Shown: positions 1 to 6,736 of the stretch, in pieces | How positions within the stretch are numbered: the first letter of the stretch is position 1 | Layout: each line of letters starts with the position of its first letter | Assembly (NCBI GenBank): GCA_017614275.1 | Contig: JAGACE010000147.1 | Span: 1 to 11,117 of the forward strand | Direction of reading: 5' to 3' | Length of the DNA stretch: 11,117 nt | DNA from: Clostridia bacterium | Lineage (GTDB): Bacteria > Bacillota > Clostridia > Oscillospirales > Acutalibacteraceae | Program-made: the position numbers and the translations under genes | Notes under the pieces: generated by a model | Told to the model about the DNA's origin: nothing | Seen by the model: the letters and a program-made list of their open reading frames with translations, nothing else | Databases searched by the model: none

Positions 1-107
1 CGCCAGATGTTTCCGAGGCCGACCGCGGAAGCCGCCGCCGCGAGGACATAGCCCATCTTGCCGGACCAGCCGGCGTTGTCGGGCGATGTGCTGGGTTTCT
101 TAGCCAT
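1..107 (-). CDS. Sodium:neurotransmitter symporter family transporter, N-terminal fragment
   Basis: Only the first 35 codons are in the window; the gene runs off the left edge. The visible protein starts with a short polar stretch followed by W14-S-G-K-M-G-Y and then AAAASAVGLGNIWR. This closely matches the start of the first transmembrane helix of the neurotransmitter:sodium symporter (NSS, LeuT-type) family, whose unwound GLGNIWRFPY segment helps bind sodium and substrate. Known members are 11-12 helix inner-membrane proteins that import amino acids or related compounds with Na+; the substrate cannot be told from this fragment. The ATG is at 105-107 and is preceded by AAGGAG about nine bases upstream, so the start is secure. 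It lies downstream of the XRE-aminotransferase gene on the same strand, so an amino-acid link between the two is possible but unproven. Confidence 0.85.
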   Translation of the reverse strand, partial: MAKKPSTSPDNAGWSGKMGYVLAAAASAVGLGNIW

Positions 108-212: not shown

Positions 213-1682
213 TCAGTACTGGGAATATCCTTCCAGGAATTCGCCGAGCCGGTCGGTCGCCTTCTTCAGCGTCCGGCGCTCCGGCAGATAGACGATGCGG
301 AAGTGGTCCGGCGAATCCCAGTTCATCGCCGTCCCCTGCAGCATCAGCACGCGCTGCTGCTTCAGGAAGTCCAGGACCATCTGCTCGTCGTCCTTGATGT
401 GGATCTTCTTCAGGTCGATCTTCGGGAAGATGTAGAAGGCCGCCTCGGGTTTGACCGCGGAGAGGCCGGGGATGTCGTTGATCGCGTTGTAGATGAACTC
501 CCTCTGCTCGTAGATGCGTCCGCCGGGCAGCAGCAGTTCGTCCACGCTCTGGTAGCCGCCGAGGGCCGTCTGGATGACCTCCTGGCCGGGCACGTTGGAA
601 CAGAGCCGCATGGAGGACAGCAGGTTCAGGCCGGTGATGAAGCCCTGGGCGTGTTTCTTGTTGCCGGAGAGCACCATCCAGCCCACCCGGAAGCCCGCGA
701 TGCGGTGGGACTTCGAGAGGCCGTTGAAGGTGACGCACATGCGGTCCGGCATCAGGGAGGCGATGGACACGTGCTTCTTGCCGTCCATGACCAGCCGGTC
801 GTAGATCTCATCGGAGAAGATCATCAGGTCAAACTCCCGCGCCAGGTCCGCGATCTGCTTGAGGATGTCCTCCGGATACAGCGCTCCGGTCGGGTTGTTC
901 GGGTTGATGATGACGATGCCGGTGGTCTTCGAGGTGATCTTGGAACGCATGTCGGCGATGTCCGGATACCAGTTCTGCTTTTCGTCGCAGCGGTAGTGGA
1001 CCGGTTTGCCGCCCGCCAGTTTGATGGACGCGGTCCACAGCGGGTAGTCCGGCATGGGCAGCAGGATCTCGTCGTCGTTGTTGACGAAGCCCTGCATGGC
1101 CATGGTGATCAGCTCAGAGGCGCCGTTGCCGGTGTAGATGTCGTCCATCGTCACGTTCGGGATCTGCTTGAGCTGGCAGTACTGCATGATGGCCTTGCGG
1201 GCCGAGAAGATGCCCTTGGAGTCCGAATACCCCTGCGCATCCCGGAGGTTGTGGATCATGTCGTGGATGATCTCGTCCGGCGCGTTGAAGCGGAAGGGCG
1301 CCGGATTGCCGATGTTCAGTTTGATGATGTCGACGCCGTTGTCCCGCATCCGGTTGGCCTCGTCGAGGACCGGACCGCGGACGTCATAGCAGACGCCGTC
1401 CAGTTTTTCCGATTTGCCGAAGTCGCGTTTCTTCTTCGGCGCAACCGCGGGCTGCGCGGGACCGTCGGCCGCAGAAGCGTCCTCTTCCCCGAACAGCCAG
1501 TCCGTGGACACGGAGAACTCCTCTGCGATGCGCGCGGCCGTCTTCTTCGACGGGACGTTGCGCCCGTTGACATACTGGGACACCGAGCCCTTGGTCAGGC
1601 CCGTGCGGTCTGCGAAGACCTGCTGGCTCCCGCCGCAGTCGCGGTCGATCAGTTGTAAGATCCGTTCCGATGCTGTTGCCAT
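213..1682 (-). CDS. XRE-type HTH domain fused to an alanine-aminotransferase-like PLP enzyme
   Basis: 489 residues. Residues about 17-63 form a helix-turn-helix of the XRE/Cro type (Q20-VFADRTGLTKGSVSQYVNGR, then a third helix region ending STDWLF). A polar linker of about 25 residues follows, and from about residue 90 a complete class I/II fold-type I aminotransferase. PLP residues are visible: GNGASE (185-190), Y213 for ring stacking, NNPTG (262-266), D291 and Y294 in SDEIYD, Schiff-base lysine K324 in GLSKSHRIAGFRVGW, and carboxylate-binding R462 in HFRIVYLP. The enzyme part resembles AlaA-type alanine transaminases (pyruvate/glutamate to alanine/2-oxoglutarate); the exact substrate is inferred. 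Family aminotransferases are about 400 residues, so the extra 90 residues are the DNA-binding part. The ATG is preceded by AGGAGG. The promoter carries repeated octamers, so autoregulation is likely. This is unlike the MocR/PdxR arrangement, whose DNA-binding domain is a GntR winged helix. Confidence 0.9.
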   Translation of the reverse strand: MATASERILQLIDRDCGGSQQVFADRTGLTKGSVSQYVNGRNVPSKKTAARIAEEFSVSTDWLFGEEDASAADGPAQPAVAPKKKRDFGKSEKLDGVCYDVRGPVLDEANRMRDNGVDIIKLNIGNPAPFRFNAPDEIIHDMIHNLRDAQGYSDSKGIFSARKAIMQYCQLKQIPNVTMDDIYTGNGASELITMAMQGFVNNDDEILLPMPDYPLWTASIKLAGGKPVHYRCDEKQNWYPDIADMRSKITSKTTGIVIINPNNPTGALYPEDILKQIADLAREFDLMIFSDEIYDRLVMDGKKHVSIASLMPDRMCVTFNGLSKSHRIAGFRVGWMVLSGNKKHAQGFITGLNLLSSMRLCSNVPGQEVIQTALGGYQSVDELLLPGGRIYEQREFIYNAINDIPGLSAVKPEAAFYIFPKIDLKKIHIKDDEQMVLDFLKQQRVLMLQGTAMNWDSPDHFRIVYLPERRTLKKATDRLGEFLEGYSQY

Positions 1683-1703
1683 CTCCGGTTCCTCCTGTAA
1701 TTA

Positions 1704-1746
1704 CTTAAAATCGTATTTCTTAAACTATACTCTTAAACTTTAAACT
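1704..1746 (-). promoter_or_regulatory. Cluster of TTTAAA-core octamers over the XRE-aminotransferase promoter (putative operator)
   Basis: On the plus strand CTTAAACT occurs at 1719-1726 and 1732-1739, TTTAAACT at 1739-1746 and CTTAAAAT at 1704-1711. Two copies lie within the promoter spacer, one overlaps the -10 box and one lies in the 5' leader. The same octamer, inverted, recurs as AGTTTAAG at 1792-1799 and AGTTTAAAC at 1798-1806, beyond the upp terminator. In a GC-rich genome such clustering over a promoter is consistent with binding sites for the HTH protein encoded just downstream. Repression is inferred from the overlap with the promoter boxes. Confidence 0.5.
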
Positions 1747-1752
1747 TTTCAA
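1724..1752 (-). promoter_or_regulatory. Sigma-70 promoter of the XRE-aminotransferase gene
   Basis: Minus-strand TTGAAA (1747-1752) and TATAGT (1724-1729) are separated by exactly 17 bases. Transcription should start near 1717, giving a leader of about 35 bases that ends in AGGAGG before the ATG. The -35 box abuts the tail of the upp terminator hairpin. Confidence 0.7.
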
Positions 1753-1756
1753 GAGA

Positions 1757-1790
1757 AAACGCCGGAAAAGTTTAACCTTTCCCGGCGTTT
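1757..1790 (-). terminator. Rho-independent terminator of upp
   Basis: The arms 1757-1770 and 1777-1790 pair over a six-base loop: nine pairs of AAACGCCGG/CCGGCGTTT, one A-C mismatch, then four more pairs. On the minus strand the stem runs into TTTTCTCTTG. It lies 26 bases beyond the upp stop codon. Confidence 0.75.
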
Positions 1791-1816
1791 GAGTTTAAGT
1801 TTAAACGATCCAGGGC

Positions 1817-5683: not shown

Positions 5684-6736
5684 TTATCTGTTTTCCTGCT
5701 CCGGGTCGGAGTGCCGGCCGAGGATCGACTTCATCTCCGCGATGGGATGAGGCACGTCTTCCGGGAAGTAGTATTCGATCTTCTTGATCTCTCCCTTCAT
5801 CGGCGCGTTGCTCTCCCCGTACGGCACGAGGACCATGTCCCCCTTCCGCAGGGAGTTGTCGTTGGTCAGGTAGTAATAGCACCGCCCGAGTTCCTCGATG
5901 CGGACCGTGACGTAGATGAGTTCGCCCGCCCGCGCGCCGTGCAGGTACACGCTCGGAGAGACGATGTTGATGAACATGGTGGACAGCTGGAGCCGGTGGC
6001 CGATCATCCCCATGAAGCGCGGCCACTCCTCCGGCAGGCAGGTCCGGTTGTAGTGCCACAGATAGTGCTCCTGCGAGCCGTCGTGCCGGTCCACGCGGAC
6101 GTCGAACCGGGCGGGTTCCTCCGGCGCCGTGTCATCCATGCTGAGGGTGGGCTCGTCCGCGAAGAAGCGGTCCCACAGGTCCAGCCCGATGGACACCTCG
6201 TTCATGTTCCGGTATTCGGTCTGCACGTAGGTCTCCGGGGAGAAGCTCCTGCGGTACATCAGTTTCTGTGTGCGGCGGTCCAGCGACATCTCTTCCGTGT
6301 ACGACTGAGGCCCGAATTCGGTGTCCTCCAGGTCGGTATACGTCATGTAGATGGTCTCGATGAGCCAGGGGTCGATGAACTCCGCCTCCGGCGCCAGCTG
6401 GTCGACGAGCAGCAGCAGATCGTCCCAGCCCGGCGGGTAGGCGCCCTGGCCGTCCGAACGGACCTCCTCCCTGCCCTCGTCTTTGTAGACCAGGGACCAG
6501 AAGACGTCCTCCGGCTGCTCGGACCGGTAGTGGCGATCCAACCCGCTGAGGTTCAGCCGCGCCAGCCGCATGAGCCATTCCTCGCTGGCGACATACGGTT
6601 CGTTCGGTTTGACGGAGAGATCCGGCATGCTGTTGAACAGCCGGGCCTTGTGGTAGACCAGACCGTCCTTCACGGTCACGTCCACCTGGGAATGGACCCC
6701 GCCCCGGGTCACGTCGAAAAACATGCGTTCCAGCAT
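5684..6736 (-). CDS. Unrecognised protein with duplicated module and a C-terminal beta-rich domain
   Basis: 350 residues, not recognised. No signal peptide or membrane helix, so probably cytoplasmic; acidic and rich in Tyr/Trp. Two regions look like diverged copies of one module. The first (about 18-115) ends with FWSLVYKDEGREEVRSDGQG, then YPPGW and DDLLLLVDQL. The second (about 147-249) ends with FDVRVDRHDGSQEHYLWHY, then LPEEW and PRFMGMIGHRL. A third segment (about 270-340) has VTVRIEELGRCYYYLTND, GDMVLVPYGESN and IEYYFPEDVPHP. This resembles a small domain that I recall, without being able to check, at the ends of other uncharacterised Bacillota proteins and faintly the N-terminal GD-VLVPFG segment of PriA. 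The start has AAAGGAGG seven bases upstream. It is monocistronic, with its own extended -10 promoter and a shared terminator. No function is proposed. Confidence 0.85.
   Translation of the reverse strand: MLERMFFDVTRGGVHSQVDVTVKDGLVYHKARLFNSMPDLSVKPNEPYVASEEWLMRLARLNLSGLDRHYRSEQPEDVFWSLVYKDEGREEVRSDGQGAYPPGWDDLLLLVDQLAPEAEFIDPWLIETIYMTYTDLEDTEFGPQSYTEEMSLDRRTQKLMYRRSFSPETYVQTEYRNMNEVSIGLDLWDRFFADEPTLSMDDTAPEEPARFDVRVDRHDGSQEHYLWHYNRTCLPEEWPRFMGMIGHRLQLSTMFINIVSPSVYLHGARAGELIYVTVRIEELGRCYYYLTNDNSLRKGDMVLVPYGESNAPMKGEIKKIEYYFPEDVPHPIAEMKSILGRHSDPEQENR

Follow-up and report, generated by a model that had tools for sequence, protein, structure and literature searches.

A fusion of an XRE-type helix-turn-helix domain to an AlaA-type aminotransferase as a candidate repressor of its own gene

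The stretch of DNA analysed here, the window of 11,117 bases, is contig 131 of a 1.28-Mb genome that is split into 249 contigs and is 78% complete. On its minus strand lie, in this order, tsaE, tsaB, rpiB, upp and a gene whose single open frame joins a helix-turn-helix (HTH) domain to an aminotransferase (Table 1). A 350-aa open frame at 5684-6736 on the same strand gave no Pfam match at E 0.001. The next gene downstream of the fusion, of which the first 35 codons occupy positions 1-107 (minus strand), encodes a sodium:neurotransmitter-type amino-acid symporter. A symporter is also present in the related loci L004 (4585-5973; SNF 197.2 bits), L006 and L007, and its function may be linked to that of the aminotransferase.

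Table 1. Features of the fusion gene and its upstream region, in window coordinates
Feature	Position	Strand	Basis or remark
HTH-aminotransferase fusion gene	213..1682	-	single open frame, 489 aa
XRE/HTH_3 domain, residues 16-63	1494..1637	-	Pfam HTH_3, 39.1 bits; AlphaFold2 pLDDT 85-92 (residues 1-60)
Linker, residues 64-88 (25 residues)	1419..1493	-	without internal start codon
AlaA-type aminotransferase part, residues 89-488	219..1418	-	Pfam, PDB match, residue alignment
Codon of K324	711..713	-	alignment
Shine-Dalgarno AGGAGG	1691..1696	-	precedes ATG of fusion gene
-35 element TTGAAA	1747..1752	-	consensus match
-10 element TATAGT	1724..1729	-	consensus match
Spacer between -35 and -10, occupied by AGTTTAAAGTTTAAGAG; proposed as main operator	1730..1746	-	same in 5/6 window-type genes
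7 GTTTAA words, proposed operator array	1720..1806		word count
Terminator-like hairpin between upp and fusion gene	1764..1782	-	consensus match

A sequence-only reading of this locus had described an XRE-type HTH fused, through a linker of 25 residues, to a complete AlaA-like enzyme, and this description holds. Pfam places HTH_3 at residues 16-63 (39.1 bits against a cut-off of 23) and Aminotran_1_2 at residues 118-479 (175.5 bits against 19.7), leaving residues 64-88 as the linker. The top PDB match, E. coli AlaA (4cvq_A), scores 571.6 bits over the 400 residues from 89 to 488, and none of the best 60 of 105 PDB matches had its best-matching stretch in the HTH part. The four residues said to be retained are indeed invariant in an alignment of 25 sequences of fused and unfused relatives: D291, Y294, R462 and K324, the last of which we take from family knowledge to be the Schiff-base lysine. 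Judged by its domains and residues, a domain of the DNA-binding type thus appears to sit on an enzyme with its full catalytic set. The HTH families matched were HTH_3, HTH_19 and HTH_31 only, which bears out the earlier statement that the HTH is not of the GntR type found in MocR, PdxR and GabR; of the two features that define MocR/GabR regulators, Pfam found the aminotransferase-like domain C-terminal to the HTH and no GntR-family winged helix. The best model of the NCBIfam library was that of an alanine aminotransferase, NF006230 (PRK08363), at 336.3 bits. Because this score lies below the cut-off of 534, alanine is a likely substrate of the fusion enzyme, short of a proven one. In the AlphaFold2 model, residues 1-60 form a helix bundle (block means of pLDDT 85-92); the enzyme part, with its shallow alignment, was modelled poorly, the mean pLDDT over the whole protein being 66.1.

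Five loci with the HTH type of the window match at 83-88% identity (among the best 80 of 311 relatives); on this comparison, therefore, the fusion is no assembly artefact of this contig. The two other matches to the enzyme in its own genome cover only parts of it, at 26% and 22% identity, so that within the 78% completeness of this genome the fusion seems to be the sole AlaA-type enzyme.

The promoter of the fusion gene reads TTGAAA-17-TATAGT, with 10 of 12 bases matching the consensus. Its spacer, AGTTTAAAGTTTAAGAG, is identical in five of the six genes of the window type and changed in the remaining one, L006. The word GTTTAA, for which 1.5 copies would be expected in the whole window of 11117 bases, occurs eight times, seven of them between 1720 and 1806, and one repeat word lies inside the terminator-like hairpin at 1764-1782. 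These words leave a strong sequence footprint of a putative operator in the fusion gene's own promoter.

Relatives were collected by a scan of one genome per species, which yielded 311, and the best 80 were kept. Among these 80, fused proteins come from Bifidobacterium, Lachnospiraceae, Eggerthellaceae and records titled Oscillospiraceae, and HTH-less relatives from Blautia and Enterococcus. Across the order, a close relative was found in 46 of 394 genomes, and the match extends into the HTH in 5 of the 46. We distinguish four HTH types: W, that of the window (GSVSQYVNGR); K, for example GKSHVSQYVSGKTVPR; B (KNYLSQYCNGK; L073 and L080); and A (L089). K and B together are the Bifidobacterium/Lachnospiraceae type, or K/B. 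When seven proteins were tested, L013, L041, L047 and L089 passed a Pfam HTH cut-off; L021, L029 and L073, three of the six K/B proteins among them, passed none. One locus with a broken frame (L081) was dropped, as were L084-L088 and L190, which are the same genes as L004-L008 and L047.

A fused gene is present in each of the eight genomes examined from the window's genus. Six of them have the HTH type of the window, G003 has one with AVSFWLSS and G006 has the Bifidobacterium/Lachnospiraceae type, three types in all. The sequence-only reading had staked its case on conservation of the HTH in orthologues; this holds for the genus, though with differing HTH types, but the domain is missing from many orthologues. 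Nor is the architecture as rare as had been implied, since it is widespread among gut Bacillota and Actinomycetota, and NCBI already uses a product name for it.

Upstream of the K/B-type fused genes, within 200 nt and on either strand, the word TTGAACT was present in 58 of 60, in at least two copies in 54 and in at least three in 39. Its density there is 14.5 per kb, against 0.29 per kb elsewhere in the same loci. The same word was found upstream of 1 of 18 HTH-less orthologues and, within 200 nt, of none of the six window-type genes; GTTTAA and AGTTTAAA words stand upstream of all six. L025 and L066, the K/B genes that lack TTGAACT, have AATGAAC variants. Word copy number ranges from one to five between genes, with varying order and spacing, and no common spacing between repeats was found. 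L196, which has no upstream sequence, was kept out of these counts. The palindrome TTAACTGGCAGTTAA, read by eye, lies upstream of L089, the A-type gene of G003, where neither word occurs; it is possibly a third operator, at one locus.

Under a looser rule, at least two TTGAAC or at least two GTTTAA words, applied to 111 genes, 63 of 68 fused genes qualified versus 4 of 43 unfused ones (Fisher p 7e-20, relatedness ignored). The fused genes that failed were L015, L022 (only 63 nt available), L025, L066 and L089, and the unfused genes that passed were L092, L202, L210 and L212. The fusion state changes just about three times on the tree, a count that does not separate gain from loss, and independent contrasts are therefore powerless on the link between HTH and word. 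A better argument than this correlation, as far as sequence comparison goes, is the retention of the word in two phyla together with an invariant HTH core: S, Q, Y, G, K and P of the core do not vary in 60 K/B proteins, in which mean column identity is 65% for the HTH, 24% for the linker and 88% for the enzyme. In 19 of the 60 K/B genes, a -10-like hexamer follows TTGAAC or TTGAAT at a distance of exactly 17 nt, so that the word is at once the -35 element. Because 2 of 18 unfused genes (L009 and L011) share the arrangement with TTGAAC, it is nonspecific when taken alone. A second peak of distances to -10-like hexamers, at offsets -11 and -10, probably comes from the A-rich flank of the word and was set aside.

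Our proposal, to which we give a probability of roughly 0.7, is that of an alanine aminotransferase of the AlaA type with a second role as repressor of the gene that encodes it. Dimers of the enzyme part, its expected form, would each carry two XRE HTH domains, and these domains would bind the short word AGTTTAAAG, in exact or closely similar copies, in the promoter of the fusion gene. Since one word fills the spacer between -35 and -10, bound protein should shut out RNA polymerase, and it is from this position that we infer autorepression. The state of a ligand or cofactor (PLP, alanine, glutamate or pyruvate) may change binding; in a minimal version, the enzyme level would feed back on expression with no ligand involved.

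The fusion could instead be a multi-gene regulator, MocR-like with another HTH, for which self-control is just one task. This question was approached through the genome-wide distribution of the words. When AAGTTTAAASTTT was searched with at most one mismatch, all four matches in the 78%-complete genome of the window fell in the fusion promoter. Of the 40 matches to the window-type word in six genomes from the genus, 24 lie in the fusion gene's own promoter; the 16 elsewhere speak for a multi-gene role. The backwards-read word gave 7 matches against the 40. For the K/B type the 11-mer AAATTGAACTT was a poor probe (16 places in six of nine genomes, several within genes), and a double word was used in its place. 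In 17 genomes it marked 27 places, distributed over 12 genomes with nothing in the other five; 17 of the 27, across nine genomes, are the own promoter, 9 of the 10 others lie inside stop-to-stop frames of 370-792 codons, and the backwards control gave 7 places. By these controls (7 versus 40 and 7 versus 27), some of the off-promoter matches are chance. Among the 16 elsewhere, a near-palindromic AAGTTTAAACTTT-like site that resembles that of the window promoter precedes mreB in G002, G005 and G007. We did not accept mreB as a second target: the site is missing before mreB in G001 and weaker in G004 (G003 and G006, where the start was not located, were left out of the comparison), and the window's 78%-complete genome gave no mreB match. 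As the matches fall mostly in the own promoter, the predicted regulon is mainly the fusion gene itself, and we regard a multi-gene role as unlikely.

Two further explanations were considered. That the HTH is a relic or a structural add-on, the repeats serving another regulator or being structural, would suit the orthologues that manage without an HTH and the one window repeat inside the terminator-like hairpin; yet the repeats accompany the HTH and are rare without it, two HTH types pair with two different words, and the HTH core has stayed invariant in 60 proteins of two phyla next to a linker of such low identity. We consider this explanation a little less probable still than a multi-gene role. 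Slightly below it we place activation of the fusion gene by its HTH. Some copies do lie upstream of the -35 element, at 1768-1806 in the window and in other genes too, but the well-kept copy sits in the spacer in the window type or on the -35 in 19 of 60 K/B genes, and the window promoter already has 10 of 12 consensus bases. Autorepression is the reading we carry forward.

How the arrangement arose was examined with a quick tree of the enzyme parts only, built from 108 DNA-checked rows, with 12 protein-only rows and four long branches (L206, L202, L203 and L212) left out. Each of the types K, W and B comes out as a single group; the fused rows as a whole do not. A single fused clade was rejected for these 108 rows (p-AU 0.013, log-likelihood 72 lower), and W and A group at 100% support despite their different HTHs; several deep branches of the enzyme tree are weakly supported. 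A tree that included the protein-only rows gave p-AU 1.4e-94 against a single fused clade. We do not rely on it and removed these rows because gene calling may have cut their 405-aa entries short, just as there are 404-aa calls that match the enzyme part of a fused gene exactly. The tree of 108 rows would require at least two fusions, or a single one followed by losses and exchange of the HTH. With no single clade of fused proteins, fusion has probably recurred or HTH domains have been exchanged, a view that the differing HTH types and words favour further. Related gut bacteria thus seem to have built the HTH-enzyme arrangement more than once.

In 49 of 62 K/B genes, the enzyme part starts with an ATG of its own. 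A Shine-Dalgarno match of at least 4 nt precedes all 49, and one of at least 5 nt is found in 40 of the 62 genes. Matches of at least 5 nt occur at 11% of 613 other internal ATGs in K genes and at 4% of 23 in B genes; HTH-less orthologues have them at 18 of 38 true starts. Linker windows at a distance from the enzyme ATG gave 3.4% of 1104 for Bifidobacterium and 9.5% of 891 for the other genes. Two further genes, L072 and L083, have a GTG with a 6-nt match. The measured linkers range from 25 to 106 residues, which makes it unlikely that the internal start is a neutral relic of the fusion. These data suggest that the message of K/B genes also yields an enzyme free of the HTH; mixed dimers of this product and the full-length protein would carry one HTH, and repression could be weakened in this way. 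The internal ATG with its good Shine-Dalgarno sequence, as at the K/B loci L021, L044, L058 and L077, leads gene callers to report a short form of 404 aa in many cases. The window gene has no internal start at the enzyme part, so the second product is a feature of relatives; for the window HTH type at large, with an ATG in five of six genes and a Shine-Dalgarno match of at least 5 nt in only one of six, we claim none. A fuller scheme, in which own repressors arose more than once with different XRE domains and words, K/B genes make both full-length enzyme and, from an internal ribosome site, free enzyme, and mixed dimers tune repression according to the ratio of the two products, a feedback loop resting on dimerisation of the enzyme, is tentative, and we would give it somewhat less than even odds.

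Among known proteins, E. coli AlaA is the counterpart of the enzyme part, down to the four retained residues; its match excludes the HTH, and the fusion adds an XRE domain and an operator-like promoter. NCBI has given the name 'bifunctional HTH-domain containing protein/aminotransferase', presumably that of CDD model PRK13355, to a Bifidobacterium thermophilum RBL67 entry (P0175) whose sequence agrees, at 100% identity, with the enzyme part encoded by the fused gene in the B. thermophilum locus L016, so annotators have already seen the architecture. The entry itself is a 404-aa call without the HTH, and its name comes with no function, operator or double origin attached. Full-text searches of open-access literature gave, among the top matches listed, no paper whose title or abstract treats the function of an HTH-aminotransferase fusion; subscription papers lay outside them. 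The new part is not the architecture, which has been named, but the upstream words tied to the HTH.

In conclusion, the fusion resembles regulators and enzymes of two kinds. MocR, GabR and PdxR, which sense PLP or GABA, likewise join an N-terminal HTH to a fold-type-I aminotransferase-like domain in a single chain. Unlike them, the fusion has an XRE-type HTH, its other half resembles a housekeeping enzyme and its main predicted target is its own gene; the HTH of MocR regulators is of the GntR family (PMC5320631). BirA is a metabolic enzyme whose DNA-binding domain represses transcription. Both BirA and PutA are enzymes unrelated to the aminotransferase of the fusion. PutA, too, is a metabolic enzyme with a DNA-binding domain and a repressor of transcription. 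Enzymes that regulate their own genes are, to our knowledge, known as single cases, and we know of no repeated recruitment with changing operator words for BirA or PutA. If our reading is true, an enzyme family that repeatedly gains a repressor domain, with an operator word that can be read and that changes with the domain, would offer a natural experiment on how such switches evolve, and the reading points to a way in which many gut bacteria may control their alanine synthesis. The fusion, then, probably works in the manner of BirA and PutA, in a MocR-like layout that lacks the GntR domain by which MocR is defined.
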